DNA of 54,495 nucleotides, taken from positions 1-54,495 of the IMG/VR virus record IMGVR_UViG_3300021375_000035; one strand, given 5' to 3'. The notes beneath the pieces were generated by a model. The model was not told the origin of the DNA. It did not search any database and saw only the letters and a program-made list of their open reading frames with translations. Both the position numbers and the translations under genes were made by a program. Source of the stretch: a virus. Numbering within the stretch: the first letter of the stretch is position 1; each line of letters begins with the position of its first letter. Below, one piece after another: positions 9,001 to 26,648 of the stretch.

Positions 9001-9339
9001 AGATGTATATACTATGTCTTTTACAATTAAATCATCCTCATAAAAAGGTGCAAAAACACTTCTAGCATTATCTGCATTTTGTTGTAATGACAAATCCATA
9101 CCAGAAATTTTTTCAATAGCTGGTGCTATAGTTTCTGCATATTGATCTCTCTTTGTTTTGTTATCTTCTCTAGATAAGTCAGCATATACTACCTTGTTGT
9201 ATAGATCATTAGTTGCTTTAAAATTGGCATCATACTTATCAGTTCTTGTTTCTAAAACTGCAGACAAGAATTTATAATCCGGTGTAAACGGTTTAATATC
9301 TGGTAAGTAAGTATCTGCTCCTTTAATGTATGTTGCCAT
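6094..9339 (-). CDS. Large internal virion (cargo-like) protein, 1081 aa
   Basis: It is a long, soluble, helix-rich protein without signal peptide or membrane segment. The N-terminal 130 residues contain a recognisable pattern: 'KPFTPDYKFLSAVLETRTD' near residue 15, then 'GMDLS', then 'VFAPFYEDD'. I associate this with cargo/internal proteins next to the short-tail genes in crAss-like and related Bacteroidota phages, from memory and without a search. The middle (about 300-450) is strongly coiled and charged. The last 40 residues form a basic/acidic helix with 'NKREENRLAREKDNAEN'. It lies between the 942-residue protein and the giant partial gene. A TTG-N19-TAATTTTG promoter-like sequence sits immediately upstream (9344-9373), so it may also have its own very short-leader transcript. 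No enzymatic motif is visible. Confidence 0.85.
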   Translation of the reverse strand: MATYIKGADTYLPDIKPFTPDYKFLSAVLETRTDKYDANFKATNDLYNKVVYADLSREDNKTKRDQYAETIAPAIEKISGMDLSLQQNADNARSVFAPFYEDDLIVKDIVYTSAYRKEMAHAQRLLDQGTEVAADRYSERGKRSLQYQLDDFINADASKALNMKLPNYVQNVNLYKMSEKILGEMDPPLKMKMDQFSEDGNYIITNQNGSLVTGAALQILQQTLMKDPRVQAAYADDAFVASRDFAANGMQAGAFQTVEEGQNAWAAETINRINQRNDLAIQAGLEDQAKQINVNANWENYQKQNGIIPGSDMSQALEENMSVAEATQAALDARMNIKREGQLPTNSVDGNLNKAYRMLMGANIETDLVNAAISYGARDQEHTIRVNERKMMDDRFRYDMAKIRANAENDMNLAKYKADREEDLAAKKGELIGSQGNPLGNALTDTRVNFGDGTTITGAVDDDGQLDPNTDLIQRTNEQFLKEDGKIFNDQLEDSLAMMQLLNPTGDNASQDQTYGVTLSDGSEYRGTIEEIRKKLSTSAEIDPEDENALPVYDQRVAVENLFGQLSTEFKDTRQRTLDDPSLTMGTDKRNQYDALYNKVWGLNGTINKRDGLDQFMTTALDNHKAAYDLSAAAVLKEDDGDNIYAQMDEAGFPPIMNDNGTLMSYEEYEELVLKGVKEGNITNPNLDWKWDTGTNNEDYMIPAYEMVREYDPIYGNYVERAKPIYNKDGSRARMIDERAVKDEAQRFYQKNRDVLNMTLTSGKVASGDLYSTAYGRSDAKGVDVVMAPTYEYTLDPLSPNPQAEAEMVQLINQLNTLDNAGTGYGIIQGDIDAANFFGYDDVQSMMQQDATAIKAWNLYKQDLNTWYNNPKRSNTAKIAPRATIQYMPSYGKSDDPTKTNAGYRVIFNPEWLASKKQGSNTASGTGSEFGALTTDEINSLTGASSVEDGVQGTAGISFIIPQEFDGNTKSIDNLYYSNVETAILAGNNGYAEFEMPEGLSPTGTYRVIKTGTNQYNLHYSINTYVPGGTYTTRTETQPINMQNGLRGLDIHIANFDKFLRNKREENRLAREKDNAENGQR

Positions 9340-9398: not shown

Positions 9399-12227
9399 TT
9401 ATACACCCATCTTTCCACTGTAAAATGGTACTGCATATTTCTTTAGTCCTCCACCTTTCTTACGTGTTATTTGCACATTAGAACCTGGATAACCTGGTAA
9501 ACCATTTGTCATTGCTTCATTTCTTCCAACAGTCAAATCAGAATTTAATGTTTGACCTGCACCAAGACTACCCCAAACTTTAAGAGCTTCTGTCATATCA
9601 AGTTCTTGATCAGGAAAATCTGCTTTTAGGTCTGTATAAAAATCTTTAAAATCATCTATTTTAGGTTTTTGTGAATCTTTATATAACTGTCTACCATTAT
9701 CTCCCCACTCTACTCTACCAGCTCTTTGTGGATTTATATCATAATAACTGTATAAATCATTTAAATTTGCTGTGTTAGCGGCATTAGTAATACCTGCATT
9801 ATATAATTCATTTGCTTTTGCTGTTTTCCAATTAGAAAAGTTTTGTGCATTTTGCAAACTTGTTATAGTATCATCGTATAGTTTAGTATCTTTAGCTGCA
9901 TTTCTAACATCAACTTGTAAATCTAATTGAGGTTGTAATGTAGCTACTTGATTCATAGTCCTAACATTATTAGTATTGACTTGATTAATAGCTTTAGCAT
10001 TTTGATCCATTGTTTTTCCAAATACATTGCTCCCTGCTAAAGCTTGTGGTCCATATGATGCTAATGAATCAGCCATAGTAGCTAATGATGCATTGTTAGC
10101 ATTAACTCTTCCTGTGTAATCATCTAATACATAATCAACCTTTTGCTCTTCTAAAGTAGGTGCCCAAGGTAAAAATAACTCATCTTCAATACCCATTAAT
10201 GTATTTAGGTTATTCTCATCTTGTTTCCACCATTCTGCTTTTGCTGGTTGTTCTTCCGGAATAGTTATCTCCAACTCTTCTTTTGGTTCTTCAGGAAGAT
10301 CCATAAACTGTTCATCTTGTGATGTAAAGTCTACATCTAACCTAGGTGTGTTAAAAGTATGAAATCCTAATGCTCCATCATATCCTTCTCCTTGTACATA
10401 ACCTTCATCTCCTGGTTTCTTAAAATGTGGTACATATGGTATACCTAACTGTTCAGCTTCTTTCTTTCTAGTTTCTTCTGCTAATACCTGGAACTCTTTC
10501 CATTGTGGGTCATTTGCAGGTTTGCTATAATCAAAACCTTCAATCTGTTCAGTAACATCTCCCCATCTATTCATAAAGTCTGCTTTCCCTTCTTCAGACT
10601 TAAGCTGTGAACTACCATATGCATATATACCTGAAGATGGATCTGCTGCTATACTAGGATCATATGTGCCATCAACTACTTGATTGCTATATATAGTACC
10701 TTGTTTTGTAGGTCTATTACCACCTGAATAAATCCCAGGTCTATATGATCCAATAGGAGAGTTTTCTAGTACTTCACCTTGTGCTTGGTTATCTGCTGAT
10801 ATAACAGATGTCTCACCTGTACCAACTCCTTCAATATCTTGCACAACTACTTTTTCTGCATCTTTAAATCTTGATTGGAAAGGTTTATACGCTCTAATTT
10901 GTTTTTTACCATTTACTTCAACTACAGTTAGTTCATATCCATCTTTTCTATATTGCTCAAGTTTATTATAGTTATCTGTACCTTCTTTATATGGATTTTT
11001 AGCTTCAGATAATTTACCTGAGTTTAAGTTTACATCTTCTTTAAGATCTTCATTTACATCTGTTACAGTTCCATTGTTAACCATCTCATCAGTTACTGTT
11101 ACTGTTTCTTCTGAGTTGCTTGGTGCTTCATATCCTACTCTATACTCTTCTGGAATGTCTCCTCCGTTATTAACTTTGTTTGCCATTCTTAAAGCTTCCA
11201 TCATACTTAACGTTCTGCCATCTTCAAATACCCATTCCTTACCATCCCACGTAGGATCTTGTGCATTTTCAGGCCATTGTTGACCTTTTCCTTTTGCAAA
11301 ATCAGATGCTTTTTCACCAGCCTTTTGATAGTTTGGTAAGTTACCTCCATATTTTGCAGTTGCCATCATAGCATTGTTTGCATCAGCTAATTCCATTTGT
11401 TCAAATGATCCTGGTGCTGGAGCTTGTTGTGGTGCTTGTTGTGGTTGTTCTTGAGCTTGTGCCATAAACTGTTGCAACATCATTAGTTGCTGTTGTTGTT
11501 CTGGCGGCAATGCTGCTATAGCTTCACGTTGTGCTTGTTGTTCTGTAATCTGTTCTACTTGTGATGTAAATTGTATAGGATCTTCACCTATAGAAATTAA
11601 ATAAGGATGTGCTGCTAATGGAACACCATCAGAAAAATTCTTTTTAGATTCTTGCATATAAGCTAACTTAGATAAATCATTCATGTTTTTCTTTAACATG
11701 AGCTCTGCACTTAATGAAGATATATTATCTGCATACTGTGAATCTAATTCACCATAATAATCATTTAATCCAAATCTTTTAGACAATTTAGCAGGTGTCT
11801 TTCTATCTCCTGCTATATCTAATTCAGCCATTTCTTCTTTACCAAACTTTAATTTTGGTGTATCTGAATAGATAAATGATTGTTCTGGTAAAAACATTGG
11901 TACTCCTCCTTTACTATGTCTAGGACCCGTAATATCATAAAGACCAAATGTCCCATCATTATTTAAATCTGTTAATACAGTTTCTCCACCTTCTGCTTCT
12001 ACATTAGCATTTTCTCTAGGTACACTTGAAAGACTATATCTTACATTTTCATCTTTAGTGTTATTAAAGTTTGTGTTTCCGTAATATTGTTGTGGAGTTG
12101 TAACCAAACCATAATCAGCTTGATCACCGGTTATCATGCCACCATCTTGCATAGCCTGAACTTCTTGAACTTTGCCGTCAACTAATTCAAAACCCTTTGG
12201 TAATTTATTTATCTTAATTCTTGCCAT
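9399..12227 (-). CDS. Large Q-rich internal virion protein with 'HSKGGVPM' N-terminal domain, 942 aa
   Basis: Residues 70-130 carry the pattern 'NVEAEGGETVLTDLNNDG', 'GPRHSKGGVP' and 'SFIYSDTPKLKFG'. I recall this domain from large structural proteins of Bacteroidota phages; its function is unknown to me. A Q-rich low-complexity stretch follows around 225-275 (runs of Q, 'PEQQQQLMM'). Double-glycine signatures occur at residue 26 ('QAMQDGGMITG'), at 294 ('KYGGNLPNYQKAGE') and near the C-terminus ('RKKGGGLKKYAVPFYSGKMG'). The C-terminal third (from about 700) is rich in N, A and Q and predicted helical. The start lies 2 nt after the stop of the upstream 951-residue gene, suggesting a pair whose products act together inside the virion. 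No catalytic motif is evident. Confidence 0.85.
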   Translation of the reverse strand: MARIKINKLPKGFELVDGKVQEVQAMQDGGMITGDQADYGLVTTPQQYYGNTNFNNTKDENVRYSLSSVPRENANVEAEGGETVLTDLNNDGTFGLYDITGPRHSKGGVPMFLPEQSFIYSDTPKLKFGKEEMAELDIAGDRKTPAKLSKRFGLNDYYGELDSQYADNISSLSAELMLKKNMNDLSKLAYMQESKKNFSDGVPLAAHPYLISIGEDPIQFTSQVEQITEQQAQREAIAALPPEQQQQLMMLQQFMAQAQEQPQQAPQQAPAPGSFEQMELADANNAMMATAKYGGNLPNYQKAGEKASDFAKGKGQQWPENAQDPTWDGKEWVFEDGRTLSMMEALRMANKVNNGGDIPEEYRVGYEAPSNSEETVTVTDEMVNNGTVTDVNEDLKEDVNLNSGKLSEAKNPYKEGTDNYNKLEQYRKDGYELTVVEVNGKKQIRAYKPFQSRFKDAEKVVVQDIEGVGTGETSVISADNQAQGEVLENSPIGSYRPGIYSGGNRPTKQGTIYSNQVVDGTYDPSIAADPSSGIYAYGSSQLKSEEGKADFMNRWGDVTEQIEGFDYSKPANDPQWKEFQVLAEETRKKEAEQLGIPYVPHFKKPGDEGYVQGEGYDGALGFHTFNTPRLDVDFTSQDEQFMDLPEEPKEELEITIPEEQPAKAEWWKQDENNLNTLMGIEDELFLPWAPTLEEQKVDYVLDDYTGRVNANNASLATMADSLASYGPQALAGSNVFGKTMDQNAKAINQVNTNNVRTMNQVATLQPQLDLQVDVRNAAKDTKLYDDTITSLQNAQNFSNWKTAKANELYNAGITNAANTANLNDLYSYYDINPQRAGRVEWGDNGRQLYKDSQKPKIDDFKDFYTDLKADFPDQELDMTEALKVWGSLGAGQTLNSDLTVGRNEAMTNGLPGYPGSNVQITRKKGGGLKKYAVPFYSGKMGV

Positions 12228-12229
12228 AG

Positions 12230-15085
12230 TTATAATAATTCAATATCAGCTCCCGCTGCAATTAGTTTAGCTAACATTGTTGAATCAACATTAACTGTCA
12301 TTTCTCCTCCTTGTTGTTTTAAACCAAATAATTCCATTAAACTTGCATCATTATTTGGTTGTTTAGATTTAAGTACCTCTACAACATTATCTCCTTTACC
12401 TTTGTAAAAATTTCTTAAAAAGTCATAGCTCTGACCATTACTAGCTGGGGGAGTAGAAAAGTATGGCATTTTATTTTTCATATTAACTATCCCACTATAA
12501 TTACCTGAACCATCATTATATAAATCATCAGCAATAAATGTAACTACATCTGCGTTGTTCATCATTCTAGCTCCCATTTTGTTATTTGATTGATTAACAA
12601 AAGCTGTATCTCTTGGAGTTATATTCATTTCTTCTAAGATCTTAAGTGCACGTTTGTTTCCAACACCTTTACTTTTAAACTCTTCTAAGTACTCTTCATA
12701 ATAAGGATGATTCTTACCTGTTTCTTGGCCATCTTGTGCTTTAGCCATTTCTCTTTTAATAACTCTATCTCTATTTGCAAGATATGCTTCTGCACCTTTA
12801 GCACCTCCATAAGCCATATTACTAAGTATATTATGCTGTGCTTCAGGAGGTAAAGCTTTAAATCCAGGATTGTTAACTCCTCCACCTTCTTTGCTTAAAT
12901 ATAAACCTGTAGTTCTATCACCTTCACTACCCATTATTCCAGAGTTTACATCAAACGTTCCTCTTTTATTAAAGGCATCTGTTTTGGTTCCATAGATATT
13001 ATCTGCCACTAAATTACCTCTTAGTTCATTTTTAGCATCTCTAATATTTTTATCTTCATACCAGTCATTTATTGAATCAGCTGCTTCAAATGCAAAATTA
13101 CTTAAACTACCAAATCCTCTTGCTACATTACTATTTATTAATCTATCTGTAAAACCATCCAGACCACCATAATCTTTAGTAACTTCTGGTCCTTGTATAT
13201 CTCCATATAAATCTGCAGCAGTACGTTGTTGTGCTGGTCCTACACCTGCATCTTCAGTAGCATCTGGAGTAACATCTGGTGCAGCATCAGAATTAAAACC
13301 ATCAACATAAGCTTGATATTGTTGTGGTGCATCAGCTGTGCCTCTAGTAACAGGATCTTGTTGTACCCATTCTTGAAAACTTAATGGGCCATCATCAGCA
13401 ACAACATCACTATCCATTGGATCTGCAAAAGGAGCTCCTGTTTCTGGTGCACTAAATTGTGCTTTATATAAATCACCACCTTGTTGCATAAAAGCTGTTG
13501 CAGCTGTAACATCTCCTGCCATTAATCTTGCAAATGACATAGGGTCATCTTTAATTTTTTGTTTAGCTTTTTTAGCTCTTTTTCCAAAACCAAACAATGC
13601 TTTAGGTATTTCTGATCCATAAGCTTGAACAGTTATTTGTTCATCAATCACTTCTTGATCATCATTTCCACTTCTCATCTTTTCTCTTATGGCATCATAT
13701 GTAGCTTTTGCTGCATCACTTAAACCATCCATATTAGAATTAAACCAATTACTAAAATCTTCTTCTGCTTGTTGAATTGGTGTATTAGTAATTTCTATAG
13801 TATTATTTCTATCTGGATCATCACCTGCATTTTCCTGTACTACTGGATTACCTAATGCATCTACTTCTGGATTCTCAATATCATATTGTTTTTTCCATGC
13901 TTGTATTGCTGCTTGATTTTCATCAGATAAATCTAACTTAACATTATAGTTAGCATTAAGCTCTTTATTTATTTTATTATTAATAGTTTTATTTTTCCAA
14001 TCACGGAATGAACCATCTTTTAAACCATCTCCATCTGTATCACCAGCAAACATATCTTGATATGCATTATTTAATACATTAGCTACTTTACCTAAACTAA
14101 AATTGTTTCCTGTTTTAAAAGCATTAGGATTAAAATAATTTTTAGTAGTTAAAATTCCTTCATCTGATGTCTCAGGTTTCTTACCTCCTATGTACTGATT
14201 ATCTTGATTTGTAAGTGTAACGTTTGCTGCATCAAAAAACTGCATCAGTTGATCTTGTTGGTTCTTCTGTTCTTCTGTTAATCCAACTTCTTCTTCACCA
14301 CCACCTTGCATGTATCCCATTGAAGGATATGCATTTGACCCATAAGCCATAGTACGTGGCATATCTATTTCAGAACCACTTTGAGCTTTTGGTGGTTCAT
14401 GACCATAACCTGCATCTTTAAGTCTTAAGTGAGTAGCTACATCATTAGCTTTTATTTTTCTATCCCCTTTATACATAAAGTGTGGTTTGAACTCTTCTTG
14501 TTCACCACCTTCTTCTTTTTTCCAACCAGCTGCATTCTTTGCAAAATTAGCCATCTTAACTACAGATGGTGGGTAAGCATCAGTATTAGCCATAACCTTG
14601 TTATATGCTTCCTTAACACTCATACCACGTGCTTTAGCCCATCTAGTAAACTTACCTTTGTTTTTTGGATCTATTTCAATTCCTGACTTAGCCATTTCCA
14701 TAGGTTGTGTAGCTACTGGACCTTGTTGATTTTGTGCAAGTTCTTCATTTCTAGCTAGTTCTTGTGGATTAGCATTAACCTGTGCTGCAGTTGCAGGCTT
14801 AGGTTGTTTCATTAATCTTACATTTTCAAACAACACAGTTATATCTTCTTCTTGATAACCTCCTGTCATTAAGGCTTCAGCAATAGTTCCTTGATCTATT
14901 TGCTGTTCCATTAGGCTCATAACAATCTCTTCTGGCTTACCTCCTTGTTCAAGTGAAGTAGAAAAGTATGTAAGAATCTCTTGCACAGCAGGATCCACCT
15001 GTTGTTGTTGAGGTTGAACCATCTGCTGCATCATTGCACCACCTTGTTGTTTTACACTTTTTTTGTTTAAATTCACTTTGCTCAT
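12230..15085 (-). CDS. Large Q-rich internal virion protein with 'KGKFT..ANFA' domain, 951 aa
   Basis: The N-terminus is Q-rich ('MMQQMVQPQQQQ'). Around residues 135-190 there is a compact motif block, 'IDPKNKGKFTRWAKARGMS' followed by 'ANFAKNAAGWK', a pattern I recall from proteins of diverse large phages without a firm function. Gly/Gln signatures recur through the protein: 'VKQQGGAMMQQ', 'EPPKAQSGSEID', 'YMQGGGEEEV', 'MQQGGDLYKAQF', 'MAKAQDGQETG' and 'LKQQGGEMTVNVD' close to the end, where the last 26 residues form a small 'AKLIAAGADIELL' helix. An EF-hand-like 'DTDGDGLKDG' lies near residue 350. The ATG is preceded by an AT-rich TTTGTATATTA element only 11 nt away. It is probably an ejected or internal protein, by position and composition. 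Confidence 0.85.
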   Translation of the reverse strand: MSKVNLNKKSVKQQGGAMMQQMVQPQQQQVDPAVQEILTYFSTSLEQGGKPEEIVMSLMEQQIDQGTIAEALMTGGYQEEDITVLFENVRLMKQPKPATAAQVNANPQELARNEELAQNQQGPVATQPMEMAKSGIEIDPKNKGKFTRWAKARGMSVKEAYNKVMANTDAYPPSVVKMANFAKNAAGWKKEEGGEQEEFKPHFMYKGDRKIKANDVATHLRLKDAGYGHEPPKAQSGSEIDMPRTMAYGSNAYPSMGYMQGGGEEEVGLTEEQKNQQDQLMQFFDAANVTLTNQDNQYIGGKKPETSDEGILTTKNYFNPNAFKTGNNFSLGKVANVLNNAYQDMFAGDTDGDGLKDGSFRDWKNKTINNKINKELNANYNVKLDLSDENQAAIQAWKKQYDIENPEVDALGNPVVQENAGDDPDRNNTIEITNTPIQQAEEDFSNWFNSNMDGLSDAAKATYDAIREKMRSGNDDQEVIDEQITVQAYGSEIPKALFGFGKRAKKAKQKIKDDPMSFARLMAGDVTAATAFMQQGGDLYKAQFSAPETGAPFADPMDSDVVADDGPLSFQEWVQQDPVTRGTADAPQQYQAYVDGFNSDAAPDVTPDATEDAGVGPAQQRTAADLYGDIQGPEVTKDYGGLDGFTDRLINSNVARGFGSLSNFAFEAADSINDWYEDKNIRDAKNELRGNLVADNIYGTKTDAFNKRGTFDVNSGIMGSEGDRTTGLYLSKEGGGVNNPGFKALPPEAQHNILSNMAYGGAKGAEAYLANRDRVIKREMAKAQDGQETGKNHPYYEEYLEEFKSKGVGNKRALKILEEMNITPRDTAFVNQSNNKMGARMMNNADVVTFIADDLYNDGSGNYSGIVNMKNKMPYFSTPPASNGQSYDFLRNFYKGKGDNVVEVLKSKQPNNDASLMELFGLKQQGGEMTVNVDSTMLAKLIAAGADIELL

Positions 15086-15136: not shown

Positions 15137-18100
15137 TTAAGAATTATCAATAATCTTAGTCATGATATAATTAGCAGGAGACATACCAGCAGATTTAGCT
15201 TGCTTATAATGCTTTCTGTTAAGCCTATCATGTAAATTTTTTGCAAATACTTCTCTATTAGTTCCATCATAATCTCCCATTATATAATTTTTAAATACTC
15301 CATATTCACCACCCCTTGCCATAGTTGTTACTTGAAATGGATCACTCTCATTTAAATAAGCATAACTTACAGGGAATACATCCTCTATATAGTTATTTAC
15401 TTTTGATATATACTTTTCTCCTGGTTGTTCAAGACCTGTATTTAATGCTAGTGAATATGCTACATCTCCAACCGGCCCTAAATACTTATATTTTGTAGAA
15501 CTTATATCTGCCATAGATCCTTCATACAAATCTCTAAGTGCTGCTACTTCTTCTTCAGGTGTACGGTCATCATCTACTCTACCAGTATTTATAAGTCTAT
15601 TACTACCTTGATTATATGCTAATATTGACATGTTCCTAATGTCTTGTTCTGTTAAACCTAAAGAAGGATACTGTTGAGCGTAATCTTTAAATAACTCATA
15701 GTTCTTTGTAAGTATATAAGATATTGCATCAACAGATTTATTATCATCAGATAAATCTTCTGGGCCAGTAATATTAAAATATTCTCTGGCAAAATTATCT
15801 AATGCATCATATTTTGTTTTTCCAATACCTAAAGAAATTGAACTATCTTCTCTACCTTTTAAGTCATATGCAATACCTTGAAGTCCAAAATTTTCTCCTC
15901 TTGCTTCATCAACTGTACGTGGTGCTTGTGCTCCAACTCCTGACTCAACACCAGTAATACCAAAGGTTGCAGTCTTTAACCATTCAGGATCTACAGATGA
16001 ATTTAGTATTTCAGGTATTTTAGTTGAATTATATGTTGCTCTTTTTAAAATATTATTAACTATTTCTTTTCTTTCAGGACTCAATTGTGTTCCCCATTTT
16101 CTTTCTAAGTTTGGAATAGCCATTGGGTCTATACTAACATCTTCATCACTTACCTCATATGTAGATTTTATTTCTACATCTTCATTAGGTCTTCTAATCC
16201 ATGCAGTAGTTAATTCATTATAAGGTTGTTGTATAACCTTACCGTTTACATTATGTGTTATAATAGGTATACCATCTTCATTTATATCTGATACAAAACC
16301 ACTATGTGTATTAAACGTTTTAGATCCTAATGTTTCTGCATGATGACTAGAACCTTGCCAATATATACCAACTATATCACCTACTTGATAATCACTAGCT
16401 TTAGTTTGATTCTTCTTATTCTTTTTTACTTTATTAGTAATTAGTTTAAGTTCTTCAATTGGAGTATTTTCATCTATATTTTTAAATGCTACATCATCAT
16501 ATATATTAAATATTCTTTCACTATTTTCTGCACCTTCCATAGATTCATATAAATCCCAAGCATCTTTATATTTTACACCAATAGCTTCTGTAAGAATATC
16601 ATTTCTTTCTAGAATAGTACACATACCTGCAGCACATCTTGGCTCATCTAATCTGTTAGGAATATTATTAAATACTGTTGTATTAATATCTTCATCAAAA
16701 TTATCTGTATTATATGCATCTATTGCAGCTCTAGTTTGATCACCAAACTTACCGTCAACACTAGAACCTCTCCCATTTAATAATGTAGGGCTCATGTATC
16801 CTTCTTTTATTAATCTTTCTTGTATAGATTTTACTTCATCATATGTATCTTTAGAATACTTTTTATAATATCTTGATATAGCAGTAGGATCAAGGTTACT
16901 ATCATCTACCATTGCTCTATGAGCTGCATATGTTCTATTGCCATAAATACCATCTGCACCTGTTCTGCCTATATCATATCCTTTAGCTACTAATATGTTT
17001 TGTAAATCTTGTATTTGATATTCATCTGCTTCAGCCATATCTTTCCATCCTTCTGCATAGTAATTAGATTTTTTAATAAAATCTGCTATTAATACTGGAT
17101 CTTGATATTCTACTGATAATTCTTGCATTATGTCTTGATCTTGTTGTGATGCCAATAAAATGTTTTCTATTTGTTCCTCAGTTAAATTTGGATTTTCACT
17201 AATTGCATCTAAAACATATTTAGGTATTCCTCTTTTAGTTGAATCTACATAAGTGTTATCTTGTTGTACTATAAAGTTTGTAGGATCATAATCTTCATAG
17301 TTTCCAAAAGGATTTTGAAATATAGCTGTTGCGTCTCTTGGATCATCTTCTAAAATAGGTAAAGTCTGTAAAGGCAACCTTGGTGCCCTAGGTAATGCTA
17401 CTCTAGTATTATCTTGTTGAACTACATTCACTTCTCTATTACCATTCTGACCTTTTGGTAATGAGCCACCAGCTTTATAAAACTTTCTACTTGTCTCTAA
17501 ATATTGTACTGGTGTTTTATTTTCTAAAGGTTTACCATCTTTACCTTTTGTTCTTTGATCTCCAAACAAATGTGGGTAAACTTCCTCTAAACCTTTACCA
17601 TCTCTAATTACTTCTCCAAAGTATTTTCTAGCTCCTTGTCTACCTAAAAAATTAGATAGGTTAATAATATCTTCATATGAGTAATCCCAGTTATCTCCTA
17701 GTTGGTCTTTATACTCTATAGTAAGATCATATGCATCTTTTACTAATGGTGTTACAATTGTTTGACCATTCTCATCTACAAAACCTTCATACAATCTTTT
17801 TGTAAATATATCATCTTGAGCTTTTAAATCTTTTATAAACTCATCTCTAGTTCCGTCATATAAACCTAACTTATCTAATTCAGAAAATCTTTGACCATAT
17901 AACCCAGAAGCAGTTGATTGTTTATTTTTCATTAATTTACCACCTAAGCTTTCTGCTTGAGCTACAGATTTTTTTACACCATCTAAATTTATTTCAATAT
18001 CTCTCCAACTGCCACCATCTTGAAAACTACCTCCAAGTCTTTTATAGAAGTCAGTTAGATTTTGCATAATACTTTCTGAATTGCCTATCATAGTATTATA

Positions 18101-20290
18101 TCCTCTTCCCACTTCATTAGCTCTCATTTTTCCAACTATTGAAGGAGGTAACACATATTCAGTGTTAATTGGCATATTACCCATACCACCACTCATATTT
18201 GCTGCACGCTCAGTTGCTACTCCTTTAGATACATTAAATGCTTTAGCATCTGCTGGATCAAGATATACAGAAAATAATCTTTTAGGATCTTTAGGATTTA
18301 GCAAGCCTGGCTTTAAACTATTTTTTGCTGCATTTAAATAAAATGGAGTAATCTCATCACTAAACCAATTACCATCCTCATAATTTACAAACGTTTGATT
18401 ATTTACATTAGCATCTTCAATTCTATTTAATCTTATTGCATCTGCTTTTTTCATTAATTTCTTAGAACCATCTGTAGTAAATACTTCTACCATATCATCA
18501 GCTGGTTTTATTACGTCTTTTACTTTTTTAACTGCTTGTTTAATTGGCCCTTTAAAATTTTTACCTTTAGCTAACCATGCAGGTATAACAGGTATAGCAC
18601 CTAATGCATCAAAAGTTCCATCTATATATTCTCCTTCTTCAAAATTTCTATCAGCATTTTCTGCATATTGATACCAAGCAAAAGGATTAACTATGTCTAT
18701 TATAGAATCATAAATATTTCTGTTAGGATTAGCTACATTTACATTATCAGGAATATCTTGATTACGTACACTATAACCAAATGATGTCAAAGGATTAGCT
18801 AATACATCAGCAGCTTTTTCAAAGAATCCTGGTGGATTATATTGCCTTATCTCACCAGCCTTTTGTTTAATAGGAATAGCTTTTATAAGTTTACCCATTA
18901 CATCTCCTTCTTCACCAATAAATTGTGGAAAGTTTCCATCAAATACATTTACACCTTCTGTTCTTATTGGAAGATCAGGCCCAAATGCTCTTGCATTTCC
19001 TGCGTCATAAAAAGTTTTATAACTAAAATCTTTAGATCCAGTATTGTTCCAAACTTCTTTATATAACTTTTTATTCTGTTCAGCAGATATAGTACGCAAT
19101 CCAGGATTAGGTTTTACTTTTAAAACATACTTTTGACCATTAATAAAATCATCTGTATTACCCAATGTATAAATTGAATTTGGGTTAGTAAATTTTCTAA
19201 CATGATCTGCTGCCATATCAAAATCTCTACCAAAATTCATAGTTTGATTCCATTGTCTTTTTCTAATAGTACCTGTAGAGCCGGGTATTTGTGTACCCAT
19301 AATCTCTAAAATCTCATCATCTGTTTTACCTAAAAACTTTTCTAAGTTTCTTATTTCATCATTTAAATATACACCTCTATATATTGCATCAGCATCCGTA
19401 GTTTGAAAAAGATCTTGTAAATACTTAACTCCTTTCTTTGCATATGGTCTTAACCAACCCAAGCCCTTTTGTGCTTTTGGTAAACTACCACCTAATTCTT
19501 TATATCTTTTTAATTCACTTATAATACTTTTATCTAGAGGGATTATTTGATATGCATCTCTTATATCTGACTTACCATAATTATTAGTTATAATAGCATC
19601 ATGCCCATCATCTATCATTTTTTGTACATCTTCTATTGAATATGTTCTTGCTTTATTTTCTATAAAAGGATTATTAGGTCTAATTTTTGCTCCCCATTTT
19701 TGAGCACCATAATCTCTAAATGCTGAATTACTTGGTGTAAAAAAACTTAAATTTTGAGGAGCTTTCCAACTTGAATACACTCTAGGATTTGCAAAATCAA
19801 GAGGTTTCATTATACTTTCTGGATTACTTGTGTTTCTGTAAAAAATATAATCTTCAGCTGGTGGTCTATTTAATCTTTTAGGAGTATCAGAAAAAAATGA
19901 CATTGCATTTGGAGTTTCTTCAACTACGTCATCAGTAACACGTACACCATCATCAAAATAATTTTTTATAAGTTGTATTCCTTTCTTTACATAAGGTTTA
20001 GCTAATTTACCAAGTTTTCCTAATTGAGCTTGTGGTATTTCTACAACCATATCACCTGGAAATTGGTATTCATTCTCAGGCAACATCATTTGTTCATTGC
20101 CAAGATTATCTACACCATAAACAGGAAAATCTACATCTTTCATTGTTATACTTCCTGACTCAATAATATTAACTGGATTGTTTATATCAGAGCTAGTACG
20201 TTTATAACCTTCTACAGATATATACTGTGTTATATCTTGTAAGAACTCATTTGGTCCTCCAGGTAATCCTATGCTTTTTTTCTTTCCCAT
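15137..20290 (-). CDS. Multi-domain virion cell-wall hydrolase with ADP-ribosyltransferase-like modules, 1717 aa
   Basis: Approximate layout: basic helix 'KLAKPYVKKGIQLIKNYF' (about 95); ART-like module about 115-265 ('FYRNTS', 'FFTPSNSAFRDYG', 'DGHDAIITN', 'IIPLDKSIIS'); a repeat of the basic helix ('LRPYAKKGVKYLQDLF', about 280); a second ART-like module about 300-475 ('YRGVY', 'FIGEEGDVMG'); a possible third about 620-750; a lysozyme-like domain about 795-935 ('TASGLYGQRF', 'LGRQGARKYFG'); two peptidoglycan-binding repeats about 1085-1200 ('DGIYGNRTYAAHRAM', 'VDGKFGDQTRAAIDAY'); an NlpC/P60- or CHAP-like domain about 1215-1380 (Cys in 'AAGMCTIL', His in 'THSGFV' and 'THNVNG'); and a second lysozyme-like domain about 1440-1640 ('GITGVESGVG' with the likely catalytic Glu, 'LAYNQGSNR'). 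'GGSLPKAQKG', 'GGSFQDGG' and 'GGSLPKGQNG' mark module borders. It probably opens the host wall during entry. The wall-hydrolase calls are firmer than the ART calls. Confidence 0.85.
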   Translation of the reverse strand: MGKKKSIGLPGGPNEFLQDITQYISVEGYKRTSSDINNPVNIIESGSITMKDVDFPVYGVDNLGNEQMMLPENEYQFPGDMVVEIPQAQLGKLGKLAKPYVKKGIQLIKNYFDDGVRVTDDVVEETPNAMSFFSDTPKRLNRPPAEDYIFYRNTSNPESIMKPLDFANPRVYSSWKAPQNLSFFTPSNSAFRDYGAQKWGAKIRPNNPFIENKARTYSIEDVQKMIDDGHDAIITNNYGKSDIRDAYQIIPLDKSIISELKRYKELGGSLPKAQKGLGWLRPYAKKGVKYLQDLFQTTDADAIYRGVYLNDEIRNLEKFLGKTDDEILEIMGTQIPGSTGTIRKRQWNQTMNFGRDFDMAADHVRKFTNPNSIYTLGNTDDFINGQKYVLKVKPNPGLRTISAEQNKKLYKEVWNNTGSKDFSYKTFYDAGNARAFGPDLPIRTEGVNVFDGNFPQFIGEEGDVMGKLIKAIPIKQKAGEIRQYNPPGFFEKAADVLANPLTSFGYSVRNQDIPDNVNVANPNRNIYDSIIDIVNPFAWYQYAENADRNFEEGEYIDGTFDALGAIPVIPAWLAKGKNFKGPIKQAVKKVKDVIKPADDMVEVFTTDGSKKLMKKADAIRLNRIEDANVNNQTFVNYEDGNWFSDEITPFYLNAAKNSLKPGLLNPKDPKRLFSVYLDPADAKAFNVSKGVATERAANMSGGMGNMPINTEYVLPPSIVGKMRANEVGRGYNTMIGNSESIMQNLTDFYKRLGGSFQDGGSWRDIEINLDGVKKSVAQAESLGGKLMKNKQSTASGLYGQRFSELDKLGLYDGTRDEFIKDLKAQDDIFTKRLYEGFVDENGQTIVTPLVKDAYDLTIEYKDQLGDNWDYSYEDIINLSNFLGRQGARKYFGEVIRDGKGLEEVYPHLFGDQRTKGKDGKPLENKTPVQYLETSRKFYKAGGSLPKGQNGNREVNVVQQDNTRVALPRAPRLPLQTLPILEDDPRDATAIFQNPFGNYEDYDPTNFIVQQDNTYVDSTKRGIPKYVLDAISENPNLTEEQIENILLASQQDQDIMQELSVEYQDPVLIADFIKKSNYYAEGWKDMAEADEYQIQDLQNILVAKGYDIGRTGADGIYGNRTYAAHRAMVDDSNLDPTAISRYYKKYSKDTYDEVKSIQERLIKEGYMSPTLLNGRGSSVDGKFGDQTRAAIDAYNTDNFDEDINTTVFNNIPNRLDEPRCAAGMCTILERNDILTEAIGVKYKDAWDLYESMEGAENSERIFNIYDDVAFKNIDENTPIEELKLITNKVKKNKKNQTKASDYQVGDIVGIYWQGSSHHAETLGSKTFNTHSGFVSDINEDGIPIITHNVNGKVIQQPYNELTTAWIRRPNEDVEIKSTYEVSDEDVSIDPMAIPNLERKWGTQLSPERKEIVNNILKRATYNSTKIPEILNSSVDPEWLKTATFGITGVESGVGAQAPRTVDEARGENFGLQGIAYDLKGREDSSISLGIGKTKYDALDNFAREYFNITGPEDLSDDNKSVDAISYILTKNYELFKDYAQQYPSLGLTEQDIRNMSILAYNQGSNRLINTGRVDDDRTPEEEVAALRDLYEGSMADISSTKYKYLGPVGDVAYSLALNTGLEQPGEKYISKVNNYIEDVFPVSYAYLNESDPFQVTTMARGGEYGVFKNYIMGDYDGTNREVFAKNLHDRLNRKHYKQAKSAGMSPANYIMTKIIDNS

Positions 20291-20291
20291 T

Positions 20292-23200
20292 TTATCTCAT
20301 TGATAATTGTAACTTAGTATTATATAATCTTAATAACATCTTTCTATTACCTGATACATTTCTTCTAAGAATAACTTGATTAGAATAATGTCTAAACTTC
20401 TTACGTTGTGTTTGAGGTTTGTTGTAATTAAGGTTAGTTGCATTTAATGTTCTTACATACCCGTTACAAGATGTATTAAATATTGGTTGTTCTGCATTTG
20501 TAAATTCTCCTCTATCATTAGTAATATCCCAGAATTGATTAAATCTAAATTTATGTTCTTCTTTAGATACAAGAATCTCCATGTTGTTTGGTGTTATTAT
20601 TGGGTAATCTAAATTTGCCCAAGGCCTATTGAATGGTTGAGGAGTTAGAACTAATAATCCTGAAACTTGATCATTGTTATACACAATAGATGCATCAAAA
20701 TTATAATCTAAATCTTCCCATTTGTCTCCACCACACATGTTGTATTGTGGATCTCCTTTATATACATATGTTTCTAATTGGTATTGGAAACTTCTGACAG
20801 TATTAACAGCTTGACCAGTATTGGAAATTAAATCTATCTCCCAAGGATAATCTACATTATAAAAATTAACAAATGAATCACATCTTACATTGTGTCTCCA
20901 AAACCCTCCTACATTATAATTTGCAGGTGTGCTATCATAATAAAAATAATTACACAATCTTGGGTCAGGATTAATATATCCTGGATCACCTATATCAAAT
21001 ATACCAGGTGCACTATCAGGACATGTTCCACTTATTGTTGTTGTAGCACCTGTTACTGTAGAAGGTGGACAAGAACAAGTTACTTTTCTACATATAGGAG
21101 GTGTTATGTCATCACATGTTCCACTAGCATCTGTATATGTTGATGATGTAGCATTCAAATATACTGGTGTATATCCCGCTGGACATTCACATACATAAGG
21201 TATTTGACACACAGCTCCTGCAATAGCTGCAGCAGATGCATCTAAAGATGCTTGATTTTGTGAATCCATAACAAATTGATTTTGCCCAGGACCACCGGAA
21301 TATACAGTGTTAGAAAGACTATTAAGTATTCCTGCATTTGGAGGAGCACCTGGACCAATATTACAAAATACCCCATAAAGTTCTTGTGCAGTATTACTGC
21401 CTAAATTAGCAAGAGCCCAAGCTCCTGTATTTGTTGCTTGACCTCCTCCTGATATAACATTTGGTGATTGAAGAACTGCCATTTGTCCACTGTTTGCTGG
21501 GGTACCATTTGTACCATCTGTAACAGTAATCATTATTTGTCTAAAAAATGGGTTTCCTGATCTATCTCCTAAATCAGAATCAGCCTTATTATTTAGTAAA
21601 GTAAAAGCTCCACCTGTTGTACTAGTTGTAGGGTTATTAGGTTGTAAAGCTTGTTGTGCATTTGTTCCACCACCATTAGTAAGGTTAAAGCCTTCAGTAG
21701 ACATCCACCCACATGCAAAAGCACCAGTCAAATCACTTGCCATACTTGGGTTAGTATATCCACCAGCTGGATCTGTCCACCATGCTGCGTCTGCTGCCCA
21801 AGCTTGTAAACCTATCTGCATATTTCCTGCTGCTAATTCATCAGCTATTGCTGGATTATTTAGAAATACATCTAACCAACGCATTTGTGCTGTAGCTCTA
21901 TCTGTATTGTTCATTACACCTGTACCTGGAATTACATTTCCTGCAGAATCAAATTGCATAGGTGTATAATTAGGAGTACCTGTACTACCTGAACAATCCA
22001 TTGCAATAACTATATCTAGTAAACAATCTTGTGGTCCCCCTGATACAGATGCATTAACTTCTTCTACATCTATAATTGCATTTACTGTTTCATTTACACC
22101 TATTTCACATAAGCCATTAGCAGGATTAAAATTATATCCTGGTGGACATTGTGGTATAGTACCAGTTATTGTCTTTGTAGTAAAGAAATGATTAATGCTT
22201 GGTAATGCTAATTCAGGATGCCAATCATGGAAAGAGATCCATGCTTTTACTTTTGGATCATATGATACAGTCCATGAACAATCATCAAAATATATTGGAT
22301 CACCAATATCAACATTAATTGATCCCCAAACTCCAGATGTTATAGTCACAGGTTTTGAAGCTGTATCACTAAAAGTTGCATCAGCAACATAAGCAGGTTT
22401 TAATTGATAATCTTTTTTCATGAAATAAACCAAATCATCTACTGAGTCATACATTACTTGACATCCTACACCAGCTACTGGATTATCTGTCCATGCTGTG
22501 TTTTCTGATTCAGGAAACTGCTTTATAAATCTTGATGGTAAATATTTAGCAAACCACCATTTCATACCATTGTTAGATATAGGATCTAATCCTTTACCAG
22601 CATACTGAAATATTTTTCCTTGTTGTTGTGATATAAAAAATAAACCTGCTGAGGTATTTATTACACCTCTTAAACTTTCACATGATCCATATTCATTAGA
22701 TATGTCTGCATTAGCAACGTTTTGGAATGGTTGACTAAATAGTTTACCATCTCCAATAGTTACATTATTATTTGAACCTAATTTTAATGTATCTACTCCA
22801 TTAAATAATTGAGGAGATAAATATGGGAAAAACACCAATGCTCCATTCTTACTAATAGGTTTAATAACACTTACTTCATTTTTAAAGTCTTTATAATTAA
22901 AGTTTAAGAATACTCTCCAATAATCTCTTTTTGATTCTTCTTGTGCTTGTAAAGAATATATTAATCTTTTAGGATAATTTACATAACAATTTGCTGCAAC
23001 GTAAGGATCATAATCACGGGGTTGTATTTGACCAAAAGAAGATATTTGAGTAACAAATTTAGATGCAGATAAAGAATCATCATATTTATAAAAATTATCT
23101 TTCTTTTCTATACTTGCATTAAACAGTGCATCTATATCATTATACTCATATATATCATAAAATCTTTTAGCAGGCATATCTTCCCAATCTCTATATGCAA

Positions 23201-26200
23201 GATTAATTTCTGACTCAACAAAAAATTCATTTATCCCATTAACATGAGTATACATATATGCGTATCTCATATTATATGCTGGGTTTGGATCACCACCTGT
23301 ATCAAAAGACCCAAATATAGAACCAAATAAACTAGTTGATTGACAATTATCATTACCTCTATCTAAATAATATCTGTCTGTTGGTACTTTATCTTGCCAA
23401 GGTCCACTAGCAAAACCTATTGATGCAACTTCACCGGCTAAACCACTTATATCAAACTTAGAAGAATCTAACCAAAATCTAGGGTATGGAATATTTACAT
23501 ATAATGAATAGTCAAATGAATACTCATTAGGTTGGCCTACTAAATAATCTGTAAAAATAGGCATAATACATTTCTCAGTATATCTATTAATATATACATC
23601 TCCATTAAACATTGGCTTTGAAGTATATAATCCAGCATATTCAGGATCTAATAATTCAACACACCCTCTCATTTGTACTTGTTTTATTCCATCTAACTGA
23701 CCATATTGATTATCAAAATTAAATTTAAGAGCTCCATATAATGAAGAAATAGTTTTTCTAAAAGGTCTTTGGAAATTAATTAAATTACTATCTCCATAAT
23801 CTTGTGTAGCACTACCACCTAAAGTAAATCTTGAATCATCTCTTGTAAAAGGATCAGCTAAAGGTAGTTCAGTTGAAACAGCAACTGTGCTAGGTCTAAA
23901 TAAATTATTTATTTTATACTTAGTTCCGTCAAAACTTTGAAAAGATGAACCTATATAATTGGAATCACTGTTTTTTACACGGAAGGTATTATTAATATTT
24001 GCTGGTATAAAATTATTATAAAATCCATTAGAGTTATATTTTAAAACATAATCTGCTGGATCAATTAAGTTATACATTAAGTCAATTACTTCTTGACCTC
24101 CTATTGCAATATTTTTTTGTGCTAATGATATACCTGCCATAAATCTAAGTACTGATGGCATAGCACTTTCTGGAGTATCATATGTAGCTCCAAGTTCTGA
24201 ACCACCACCATACATTCCAGGAATTGCAGCTTTTAAAGCTCTTGATTCTGCTATAGCATTTAATTCTGTTGAGGATGTTGCACCTCCTGTATATAAATCT
24301 GCTGCATCTATAGCAGTATCAATAAGTGCATCTACTACTAAATTCCATAATGCACTTATCCCTGCTTGGACACCAATAGAAGTACCATAGATAAGTTGAG
24401 TTCCTGATGATACTAAAGGTGGAACTACACCCACAAAAGGAGCATTACCATCAGCATTACTTCCTGATAATGGTACAGCTGTTTTATGAGTTGTACCTTG
24501 TACTGCATGTAATGCATATCCAATTCCTATTAAACATGCTAATGAAGATGCTACCGGTCTAAGTAATTTAAATTGTGGATGATCTTCTGATGCTTTAAAA
24601 TAACCAGTGCTATGACCATGTTGTTCACCGTATATTTTAGTTTCATACGCATTTAAAAATGGTTTAGTAAACATTAAATCTGGAGAAGAAAATGTAAATA
24701 CATCATCCGTGTATCCTGATAAAGGTGGATAACAGTCTAAACTATCGGTAAAACTAGTAGAACACTGTGGTGAAGGACCAGCTGGGTTACCACAATATGA
24801 AGCATCTGTTGACCCTGACCTTTGATCTCTTGAAGATCCTGCTTTTCCTTTATGAAAATACACATCATCCTGTAAACAATTGTAAGGATAGTTAGGATAC
24901 AAACCTTGTGTGGCAGTTCCTAATAAATTAGCTTGACCAGGTATATCATACTTACGCATATTTTTAAACATACCTTTTGCTAAAATTGATTTAGCTCCTT
25001 GTCTAGATCCTCTTAGTATTTCATATCCAACTATATTTTCTATAGGTGTACCATCATTGTACAATGGTATAGCAATATCAGAAAACTCTACCCCTAAAAG
25101 ATTTATTAGATCCCCTTCTGTTGTACTTATTCTTAAATCTGAACCTAATGATTCATCAGGCATTTTATGATGCCTAATTTTTTTACCACATAAATCCCCC
25201 CATATATCTGGTCTATTAGTTGGGTATCTTTCTGTGGATTCCCAAAATGCCATTTCCCCTCTTCCTATAATTACAGAACCGTCTGGTTGTACTTCATTCA
25301 CAGGTGATGGTGCACCTGCTGTATTATATACTTTAAAAACCGGTTCACCATCTATTTGATTTAATACATTTTGTCCACCAATTATAGCATTTTCCATTTC
25401 TGGTCCGGATGGTGTATTATACATCACTGGAGCTCTACCAGGTATATGATATGATGAAGATCTTTCTCCAGTATTATATATCCACCTAATAAAAAATGCA
25501 TATTGCTCATCACGCATAAAACCTACTTTAGGTCCGGCTAAATGATAATAAGTAGAAGGTTGTTGATTTATTACATAGTTAACTTTAATGTTATTTGCTA
25601 AAGGTTGATAATTAAAATCAAATTGCTCTGTAGGCCCTTGTCTTAACAACCAATCATTTACAACAAACATAGACTCAGACTTTTCATATGCAGGACTACG
25701 CAATGGAATTGTAACTAAATCTACAGCTGGTAAACTTTCATCAACATTATCTATATTAATAAAATCTTGTTCAGTACTATATATACCTATTTTTTTTGCT
25801 GATGTTTGACCTTGATTTCTTCTTAATAATACTACTTCATAATAAAAAAAATCTTGATCTAAATTAGATAATGAAATATCTAAAGAACTACTTGTACCTT
25901 CATGACTCCACAATCCTATTACATTTGAAATACCAATATAATCTGTTACCTTTTGTTCATTTTCTACATAAGCTATAAAAACTTGATAGGATCCATTTTG
26001 TAACATTCCTCCATCAGTTGCTTTAGTTATTTCAACACAAGGAGTATCTACCAATGGAGCTAATCTTATTTTTTCACAATTTAATTTTTTTGGTTCTAAG
26101 TCTACAAACTCTGAACATGGTTCACCATTAACATCTATACCGGCTACCTGAACTTGTTTATATGGTATATTATCTATATTTAAAGATCTAGATGGATTAT

Positions 26201-26648
26201 TACCATCATCCCAATATACTTGCCATGAACAATCAAAATTTTCTTTTGCTGCTCCTGTAATTAAATGTTTAGTTGAAAAATTTAAACATGTGTCGTTAAC
26301 TAGTGTTGTATATTTACATTCACTATCATCAAATGTACCTATTTCAGAATTTATATCATCTGTAGAATATACTATCCATTCATCACCATATCTATGTATA
26401 GCACCAATAACTGTATAAGGTATAACACCACAAGATAAGTTTGATGGTTCATTACCTATTATTCCTAAATCTCCATCCTCTGAATTATTTACTACATTAC
26501 GTGCATGCCACCAAGCTTGGTTGTTTTCCAAAGATGGAGTAATGTCTTTGTTCATCCCCTTAATAAAGGAATTTGTTTGTACTGATGAACTCCCCTTTGA
26601 TGGAACCTTACTTCTACTACCAGAATTAGTTGTACGTTTTTTTGCCAT
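20292..26648 (-). CDS. Short-tail stabilization protein with inserted VWA domain, 2118 aa
   Basis: After a Ser/Lys-rich start, 'FIKGMNKDITPSLENNQAWW' (about residues 28-47) is the N-terminal hallmark I associate with crAss-like tail stabilization proteins. A very long beta-rich body follows. Near residue 1480 the text 'WISFHDWHPELALPSINHFF' is typical of the conserved C-terminal part of that family, whose continuation appears only at about 1919 ('GFWRHNVRCDSFVNFYNVDY'). Between them lies a foreign-looking module: Cys-rich 'CPPGYNFNPANGLCE', a von Willebrand factor A domain (MIDAS 'DCSGS' near 1549, 'GGGTNAQQAL' near 1660, 'ITVTDG' near 1707), then two more Cys-rich motifs ('CECPAGYTP', 'CSCPPSTV'). 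The basic C-terminus resembles a tail anchor. The stop is 1 nt before the ATG of the wall hydrolase. Role: tail hub or tail-tip body that also displays an adhesion domain (inferred). Confidence 0.85.
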   Translation of the reverse strand: MAKKRTTNSGSRSKVPSKGSSSVQTNSFIKGMNKDITPSLENNQAWWHARNVVNNSEDGDLGIIGNEPSNLSCGVIPYTVIGAIHRYGDEWIVYSTDDINSEIGTFDDSECKYTTLVNDTCLNFSTKHLITGAAKENFDCSWQVYWDDGNNPSRSLNIDNIPYKQVQVAGIDVNGEPCSEFVDLEPKKLNCEKIRLAPLVDTPCVEITKATDGGMLQNGSYQVFIAYVENEQKVTDYIGISNVIGLWSHEGTSSSLDISLSNLDQDFFYYEVVLLRRNQGQTSAKKIGIYSTEQDFINIDNVDESLPAVDLVTIPLRSPAYEKSESMFVVNDWLLRQGPTEQFDFNYQPLANNIKVNYVINQQPSTYYHLAGPKVGFMRDEQYAFFIRWIYNTGERSSSYHIPGRAPVMYNTPSGPEMENAIIGGQNVLNQIDGEPVFKVYNTAGAPSPVNEVQPDGSVIIGRGEMAFWESTERYPTNRPDIWGDLCGKKIRHHKMPDESLGSDLRISTTEGDLINLLGVEFSDIAIPLYNDGTPIENIVGYEILRGSRQGAKSILAKGMFKNMRKYDIPGQANLLGTATQGLYPNYPYNCLQDDVYFHKGKAGSSRDQRSGSTDASYCGNPAGPSPQCSTSFTDSLDCYPPLSGYTDDVFTFSSPDLMFTKPFLNAYETKIYGEQHGHSTGYFKASEDHPQFKLLRPVASSLACLIGIGYALHAVQGTTHKTAVPLSGSNADGNAPFVGVVPPLVSSGTQLIYGTSIGVQAGISALWNLVVDALIDTAIDAADLYTGGATSSTELNAIAESRALKAAIPGMYGGGSELGATYDTPESAMPSVLRFMAGISLAQKNIAIGGQEVIDLMYNLIDPADYVLKYNSNGFYNNFIPANINNTFRVKNSDSNYIGSSFQSFDGTKYKINNLFRPSTVAVSTELPLADPFTRDDSRFTLGGSATQDYGDSNLINFQRPFRKTISSLYGALKFNFDNQYGQLDGIKQVQMRGCVELLDPEYAGLYTSKPMFNGDVYINRYTEKCIMPIFTDYLVGQPNEYSFDYSLYVNIPYPRFWLDSSKFDISGLAGEVASIGFASGPWQDKVPTDRYYLDRGNDNCQSTSLFGSIFGSFDTGGDPNPAYNMRYAYMYTHVNGINEFFVESEINLAYRDWEDMPAKRFYDIYEYNDIDALFNASIEKKDNFYKYDDSLSASKFVTQISSFGQIQPRDYDPYVAANCYVNYPKRLIYSLQAQEESKRDYWRVFLNFNYKDFKNEVSVIKPISKNGALVFFPYLSPQLFNGVDTLKLGSNNNVTIGDGKLFSQPFQNVANADISNEYGSCESLRGVINTSAGLFFISQQQGKIFQYAGKGLDPISNNGMKWWFAKYLPSRFIKQFPESENTAWTDNPVAGVGCQVMYDSVDDLVYFMKKDYQLKPAYVADATFSDTASKPVTITSGVWGSINVDIGDPIYFDDCSWTVSYDPKVKAWISFHDWHPELALPSINHFFTTKTITGTIPQCPPGYNFNPANGLCEIGVNETVNAIIDVEEVNASVSGGPQDCLLDIVIAMDCSGSTGTPNYTPMQFDSAGNVIPGTGVMNNTDRATAQMRWLDVFLNNPAIADELAAGNMQIGLQAWAADAAWWTDPAGGYTNPSMASDLTGAFACGWMSTEGFNLTNGGGTNAQQALQPNNPTTSTTGGAFTLLNNKADSDLGDRSGNPFFRQIMITVTDGTNGTPANSGQMAVLQSPNVISGGGQATNTGAWALANLGSNTAQELYGVFCNIGPGAPPNAGILNSLSNTVYSGGPGQNQFVMDSQNQASLDASAAAIAGAVCQIPYVCECPAGYTPVYLNATSSTYTDASGTCDDITPPICRKVTCSCPPSTVTGATTTISGTCPDSAPGIFDIGDPGYINPDPRLCNYFYYDSTPANYNVGGFWRHNVRCDSFVNFYNVDYPWEIDLISNTGQAVNTVRSFQYQLETYVYKGDPQYNMCGGDKWEDLDYNFDASIVYNNDQVSGLLVLTPQPFNRPWANLDYPIITPNNMEILVSKEEHKFRFNQFWDITNDRGEFTNAEQPIFNTSCNGYVRTLNATNLNYNKPQTQRKKFRHYSNQVILRRNVSGNRKMLLRLYNTKLQLSMR
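20933..22166 (-). other. VWA plus Cys-rich module inserted in tail stabilization protein
   Basis: This span codes for residues of about 1495-1905 of the 2118-residue tail protein. It holds a complete metal-ion-dependent adhesion site signature (DxSxS, then T, then D), flanked on both sides by EGF-like 'C-x-C-P-x-G-Y/S' pieces. The sequence before and after reads as one continuous family domain if this part is removed. VWA domains bind ligands through a Mg2+/Mn2+ ion, so an adhesion role at the tail is likely. Borders are approximate. Confidence 0.7.

Follow-up and report, generated by a model that had tools for sequence, protein, structure and literature searches.

The Crassvirales rank with the most abundant phages, and little is known, to our knowledge, of what they bring into cells apart from components of RNA polymerase. 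Two described systems can be placed beside the locus analyzed here. Polyvalent proteins of phages and conjugative elements, as described by Iyer et al. (2017), are predicted to be injected and combine lysozyme, ADP-ribosyltransferase (ART), and peptidase domains (PMC5512222). In phi-crAss001, the genes that follow the muzzle gene gp44 encode the cargo proteins gp45 and gp46, which were detected by mass spectrometry of the virion (PMC10172136).

The window, a stretch of 54,495 nucleotides, comprises positions 1 to 54,495 of the IMG/VR record IMGVR_UViG_3300021375_000035. Its minus strand carries an uninterrupted open reading frame (ORF) of 1717 amino acids at positions 15137 to 20290, so that the single protein proposed in the first-pass annotation is borne out and now has a strand, which had been absent. 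The features and genes given below with window coordinates all lie on this minus strand. We consider it probable that the product (P0001, or POLY) is a polymorphic polyvalent protein, packaged as cargo in the virion of a divergent crAss-like phage, and would open the cell wall and deliver effectors.

Gene Context

The muzzle gene upstream of POLY (positions 20292 to 26648) matches crAss_MUZ (PF25731, Pfam E 1.6e-23), and the same record holds a major capsid gene (PF23898, Pfam 4.6e-30), matched ring 1 and ring 2 genes, weak matches for ring 3/4 and portal, and a TerL about 25% identical to the terminases of Crassvirales and Flavobacterium phages. Judged by its muzzle, capsid, ring genes, and terminase, the record is that of a divergent crAss-like phage. 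Downstream of POLY, after a gap of 51 bp, comes the cargo-like C_a (positions 12230 to 15085), which carries linker-type motifs and resembles residues 366-425 of crAss001 gp45 (hhalign probability 83%). It is followed by the cargo-like C_b (positions 9399 to 12227), similar to residues 349-433 of phi17:2 gp41 (hhalign probability 54%), and by C_c (positions 6094 to 9339). The order ring2-ring1-muzzle-POLY-C_a-C_b-C_c, of which C_c forms part, is repeated across related loci. Homologues of P0001 include L001, with 57% identity across about residues 437-1717, and L002, with 74% identity across residues 1-782. No match to whole P0001 was obtained among named phages by tblastn; matches in Cellulophaga and Leptolyngbya phages were limited to the N-domain.

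Several other genes in and around this region were recorded. A very long ORF with an open end (at least 2029 amino acids; window 1-6087, minus strand) follows C_a, C_b, and C_c, in the region where crAss001 has the RNA-polymerase-associated cargo gp47, and is without a significant Pfam family. A virion-region protein (window 30822-33038, minus strand) has a von Willebrand A domain at its C-terminal end (PF00092, 6.8e-7), and an insertion at about residues 1590-1850 of the muzzle contains a DxSxS-like string, DCSGSTG, similar to the von Willebrand A string and Pfam-negative. A tail fibre (window 34433-37189, minus strand) bears a C-terminal intramolecular chaperone, Peptidase_S74 (7.2e-11). In a related locus, an ORF between two tail ring genes (L010:1005-1700) resembles a GIY-YIG homing endonuclease.

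Conserved Ends and Probable Virion Association

The first 92 residues of P0001 form a conserved N-domain (positions 20015 to 20290), predicted by AlphaFold2 as a confident beta-rich fold with pLDDT 71-93 from about residue 21, and 304 stretches related to this domain of about 92 amino acids occur in IMG/VR. A hidden Markov model of the N-domain matches gp040 of Cellulophaga phage phi4:1 (E 1.3e-18), gp41 of Cellulophaga phage phi17:2 (E 9.8e-18), and a Leptolyngbya phage protein encoded directly after a muzzle-like gene (1.4e-13). The phi4:1 protein is annotated as a virion structural protein on the basis of experimental MS/MS proteomics, and a structure search of BFVD with the AlphaFold model independently gave that protein as the top viral match (E 4.2e-6). 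In phi4:1 and phi17:2, the N-domain forms part of a C1-like virion protein, and in phi4:1 it is not fused to lysozymes or ARTs. Taken together, the N-domain homologue and the gene context indicate that P0001 is most likely packaged inside the particle.

The opposite end is a conserved C-domain of about 57 amino acids (residues 1661-1717, positions 15140 to 15310), present at 56 loci. Models of the N-domain and the C-domain gave no match to gp45, and scans of bacterial genomes with the N-domain returned no relatives and no prophage context. A free N-domain ORF of about 79 amino acids occurs in L062, L063, L071, L074, L078, and L090, at 7992-8231 in most of them, a few genes upstream of apparent terminase and portal genes of another phage group; several of these phages also encode a GroEL-like protein. 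Because a free copy lies near the head genes of that other group, the role of the N-domain is maybe not cargo tethering. In one further locus (L011:7665-9368), a SET-like stretch precedes the N-domain within the same ORF.

The Putative Wall-Active Half

The protein had been read as including two lysozyme-like domains, two peptidoglycan-binding repeats, and an NlpC/P60-like domain, and the repeats proved the firmest of these. They lie at about residues 1070-1200 (positions 16691 to 17083) and match PG_binding_1 (PF01471) in two stretches, with 38.8 bits against a Pfam cut-off of 23 (E 1.1e-9). Lysozyme-like LYS1 (residues 763-940, positions 17471 to 18004) and lytic-transglycosylase-like LYS2 (residues 1406-1647, positions 15350 to 16075) each contain a glutamate, Glu780 and Glu1449, that is invariant among aligned relatives. 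Foldseek relates the model of the C-terminal half, itself of low confidence (mean pLDDT 56), to MltE and MltC with probability 0.92-0.99 and E 0.07-0.5, and for MltE the same low-confidence model gave probability 0.98-0.99, a target TM of about 0.5, and E 0.07-0.15. The MltE/MltC-like fold and the two glutamates are in favor of the lysozyme-like domains; against them, LYS1 and LYS2 have no Pfam match.

The NlpC/P60-type, clan CA-like segment (residues 1201-1396, positions 16103 to 16690) fared in a similar manner. Its Cys-His-His set C1224, H1329, and H1346 is conserved in nine aligned sequences, and Pfam returned only weak clan-CA matches below cut-off at residues 1270-1350 (DUF1287, E 0.012; Amidase_6, E 0.061) and nothing for PF00877 (NlpC/P60). 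Comparison of LYS1, LYS2, and the NlpC/P60-type segment by hhalign with stretches of relatives that Pfam confirms as SLT, lysozyme, or NlpC was not significant. The presence of lysozyme-like and NlpC/P60-type domains in P0001 is accordingly graded here as supported but not proven.

The N-Terminal Modules

Two or three ART modules had been proposed for the N-terminal half from short strings, which were located in P0001 at residues 150-155 (FYRNTS), 228-236 (DGHDAIITN), 304-308 (YRGVY), and 459-463 (GEEGD). Four segments are distinguished here, namely ART1 (residues 118-265, positions 19496 to 19939), ART2 (residues 300-482, positions 18845 to 19393), a helical 'mid' segment common to many relatives (residues 483-600, positions 18491 to 18844), and a core module (residues 600-756, positions 18023 to 18493). 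Pfam found no ART in whole P0001, nor, at E<=10, in isolated ART1, ART2, core, or sister modules. In the same slot of relatives L006, L144, and L034, ART-PolyVal (PF18760) is confidently matched (Pfam E 7.7e-13 to 2.9e-12).

Profile-profile comparison by hhalign employed a 15-sequence phage ART profile and a background of 60 random family segments. ART1 (118-265) scored 27.6 (p 0.0014), where the highest background score was 21.7, and leave-one-out controls with true ART members reached p 5e-12 or better. No signal was obtained for ART2 (285-480, p 0.16) or the core (600-756, p 0.13), and hhalign with a shallow ART profile returned nothing. A sister module in L024 also rose above the ART background, on a 19-residue tail. 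In the ART1 alignment, the profile segments YFTDRADAASGYA, VYLNIQNP, YDGIVFT, and EFVVFSPEQV are paired with FFTPSNSAFRDYG, AKIRPNNPF, HDAIITN, and AYQIIPLDKSI of P0001. The YHG that is invariant in five aligned ART-PolyVal sequences is replaced by YRN (R152) in all four members of ART1, which is confined to four phages; a search of 49 whole viral records with ART1 found the same four only. The profile comparison is suggestive, short of proof, of ART1 being a divergent phage ART-PolyVal.

Structure prediction of residues 1-780 from a 31-row alignment left most of residues 111-480 unfolded and folded the core confidently, in a form without a PDB match and with no class assigned. A Foldseek search of the PDB with this model found no ART. 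ART2, for which L002 was the only relative found, is ART-like by eye only: R305 and EEGD at 460-463, which bear on the catalytic R-S-E residues that were to be looked for, are present, and no ART fold accompanies them in AlphaFold or Foldseek, with two near-identical sequences to judge from. A scan of bacterial genomes with an ART-PolyVal returned no relatives. Of the two or three ARTs, one therefore retains suggestive profile support, ART2 and the core are without signal, and Pfam and fold prediction supply no proof. An ART fold had been expected at residues 115-475 or 620-750; the Pfam, hhalign, and AlphaFold results decide neither way at 115-265 and lean against an ART at 620-750.

Two observations lie beside this question. 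The gut crassvirus protein cr85_1 gp056, a Steigviridae RNA-polymerase-associated cargo protein, ends in an ART-PolyVal-type domain (residues 2322-2484, L163:8971-9474) and shows that crass cargo elsewhere does include an ART-PolyVal-type domain. The core module is found in a 771-amino-acid protein of unrelated phages as well (L009:2608-4920 and L008:5770-8082), which is encoded upstream of capsid-type genes and has a different repeated linker, KGGFDPxExLS.

Module Exchange and Family Polymorphism

ART2 is a recently exchanged cassette, transferred whole and with its reading frame open. It is 96% identical to L002 in nucleotides and 92% in amino acids, with a third-position identity of 0.97, against a DNA identity between P0001 and L002 of 0.73-0.83 in other modules and 0.57-0.79 in neighboring genes. 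The edges of the high-identity tract are sharp, at about residues 303 and 482, and the exchanged tract therefore corresponds to one module. Past residue 782 the wall-cutting tails differ, that of P0001 resembling L001 and that of L002 being SLT-LysM-LysM-YkuD, and it follows that the tail has been swapped too.

This exchange bears on whether the N-terminal modules do anything at all. It could be argued that P0001 is an entry muralysin only, in which the wall-cutting half is what matters, the N-terminal modules being non-enzymatic spacers, either structural or decayed. The absence of ART signal from ART2 and the core, the loss of the YHG histidine from ART1, and the standing of the PG-binding and transglycosylase-like parts as the best-supported domains would all agree with such a protein. 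We nevertheless regard it as rather unlikely, given that the same slot in relatives holds confident ART-PolyVal, SET, and M91/HExxH domains and that ART2 was traded with its reading frame intact.

The family was sampled as 48 ORFs with both an N-domain and a C-domain, 37 of them full-length and non-redundant. Among these 37, the median identity is 58% for N-domains and 49% for C-domains. Their middles share nothing in 55% of non-redundant pairs and less than one quarter in 84%, yet the median private fraction of a middle is just 13%, the remaining 87% (median) recurring in another member, so that the middles combine a common pool of modules. Pfam domains found in the middles of relatives include LysM, SLT, YkuD, PG_binding, phage lysozymes, ART-PolyVal, Peptidase_M91, and SET. 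The motif HExxH, zincin-like metallopeptidase in type, occurs 22 times in the family against 0.46 expected, in 17 of 61 non-redundant members, and does not occur in P0001. A putative effector, under which we presumptively count the core and HExxH stretches, stands ahead of a wall-active module in 77 of 77 module pairs and in all 16 proteins having both kinds, which are related and therefore do not amount to 16 independent events. The family is one of fixed ends and a combinatorial middle, with putative effectors first and wall-cutters last.

A polymorphic middle between fixed trafficking ends, effector types (ART, peptidase, SET) common to toxin systems, and the occurrence of the core module in a protein encoded next to capsid genes in other phages would also suit a MuF-like polymorphic toxin that acts on competitors or on superinfecting phages instead of helping infection. 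This appears improbable, as Pfam finds no MuF domain in P0001, the effectors are internal and not C-terminal, the next gene is the cargo-like C_a directly after the short gap and not a candidate immunity gene, and the bacterial genomes searched show no prophage context. The PHROG matches of P0001 bear the name 'endolysin' on account of its PG-binding repeats, and a multi-domain endolysin acting in lysis at the end of infection was rejected as highly improbable on gene context and virion homology, P0001 being placed in the recurrent muzzle-cargo gene string, sharing its N-domain with an MS/MS-detected virion protein, and having a size, and effector-type modules in its relatives, that speak against it.

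The PxAQxG Linker

A linker motif, P[K/M/I/V/Q]AQ-x(1,2)-G, stands at the end of the N-domain and again between modules, in many cases as GGSLPKAQxG. In the 61 non-redundant members it is present in 71 copies against 0.37 in shuffles, and internally in 45 against 0.36 expected, an excess that reflects conservation and not independent origins, since co-inherited copies were counted separately. In P0001 the copies, including degenerate ones, fall at residues 86, 267, 753, 941, and 1660, which are module boundaries. They include IPQAQLG at the end of the N-domain (residues 85-91, positions 20018 to 20038), GGSLPKAQKG (residues 267-276, positions 19463 to 19492), the degenerate GGSFQDGG (residues 753-760, positions 18011 to 18034), and GGSLPKGQNG (residues 941-950, positions 17441 to 17470). 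Outside POLY the linker is almost confined to the two neighboring cargo-like proteins, with 0.95 copies per 1000 residues in POLY, 0.68 in C_a, 0.33 in C_b, and about 0.04 in C_c and other ORFs; 122,743 muzzle residues contain none, nor do the ring proteins. A recurrent zinc-ribbon-like cassette (CNSCGWKWKAADGGNDLTTCHKCGG) stands immediately before the PKAQ linker in many members, and precedes an internal linker in L005, L007, L017, L040, L106, L114, and L136.

Proposed Role

Packaging, ejection, wall cutting, delivery, and an enzymatic activity of the N-terminal modules are each proposed for P0001 as parts of the cargo reading given at the outset. The N-domain, and possibly the PxAQxG linkers too, would place P0001 behind the muzzle, together with the remaining cargo. 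As the cargo exits the tail, the C-terminal half, with LYS1, the PG-binding repeats, the NlpC/P60-type domain, and LYS2, would open the peptidoglycan. ART1, ART2, and the core would ride along, possibly be freed at the linkers, and act on the host as effectors after entry. Modules between linker copies would be exchanged by recombination. The first-pass annotation had likewise joined wall cutting to the delivery of host modifiers, and this finds support in the gene order, the phi4:1 MS/MS homologue, and the ART-PolyVal in the same slot of relatives. Weighing against it, ART1 alone is suggestive here, with YRN for YHG, and the other two modules are unproven.

More tentatively, it could be speculated that the linker is a tag in a crass-type payload system, in which N-domain and PxAQxG together mark cargo, cassettes are traded tag to tag, and multiple enzymes are released. 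Between modules, the tag might then serve for docking, as a hinge, or as a processing site. With the wall-cutting half staying downstream, one virion protein could open the wall and release separate host-modifying enzymes. If the cargo reading itself holds, an interchangeable payload system would exist in a very abundant virus group, and a virion protein with fixed ends, swapped modules, and a cargo-specific linker would explain adaptation of entry and early takeover through recombination. New injected effectors could then be sought by a simple rule, as any module between a POLY N-domain and C-domain, and a short sequence tag would make it testable how crass cargo is sorted and ejected.

Comparison with Known Systems

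Among crassviruses, the cargo proteins C1 and C2 (gp45 and gp46) provide the positional counterpart, as POLY lies directly after the muzzle gene and C_a and C_b resemble C1-type proteins. P0001 differs from C1 and C2 in lacking homology to either, in being about twice as long, and in having wall-active and effector-like modules, and in phi-crAss001 nothing lies between the muzzle gene and gp45.

T4 Alt would be comparable, if the proposal holds, as a virion-packaged enzyme delivered with the DNA that modifies the host. Unlike Alt, P0001 has its candidate ART fused to wall-cutting domains; no homology to the Alt family was detected in it, and an ART here would be of the ART-PolyVal/HYD2 type. 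MuF polymorphic toxins of temperate phages are virion-linked and combine a constant trafficking part with a variable enzymatic part (PMC5576092), as POLY does, whereas P0001 has no MuF domain, its variable part is internal and multi-modular, and its C-terminal end is conserved.

The likeness to polyvalent proteins is broader. P0001 unites disparate domains in a single polypeptide and adjoins late virion genes, just as a polyvalent protein is a very large chain with a number of mutually unrelated enzymatic domains, whose gene lies with the late genes of the virion, with ART, zincin, and lysozyme domains in the repertoire and predicted injection (PMC5512222); the zincin-like metallopeptidase that is common, although not universal, in such proteins is absent from P0001. 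POLY differs in its conserved ends, in the strict order of N-domain, effectors, wall-cutters, and C-domain, in the PxAQxG linker parting its modules, and in its place in the cargo cluster of a crAss-type podovirus behind the muzzle. The fusion of lysozyme and ART is not a new concept, because injected proteins combining them have been described (PMC5512222). What is new, as far as the literature consulted shows, is a crAss-type chassis with fixed ends, strict order, a cargo-specific linker, and module exchange.
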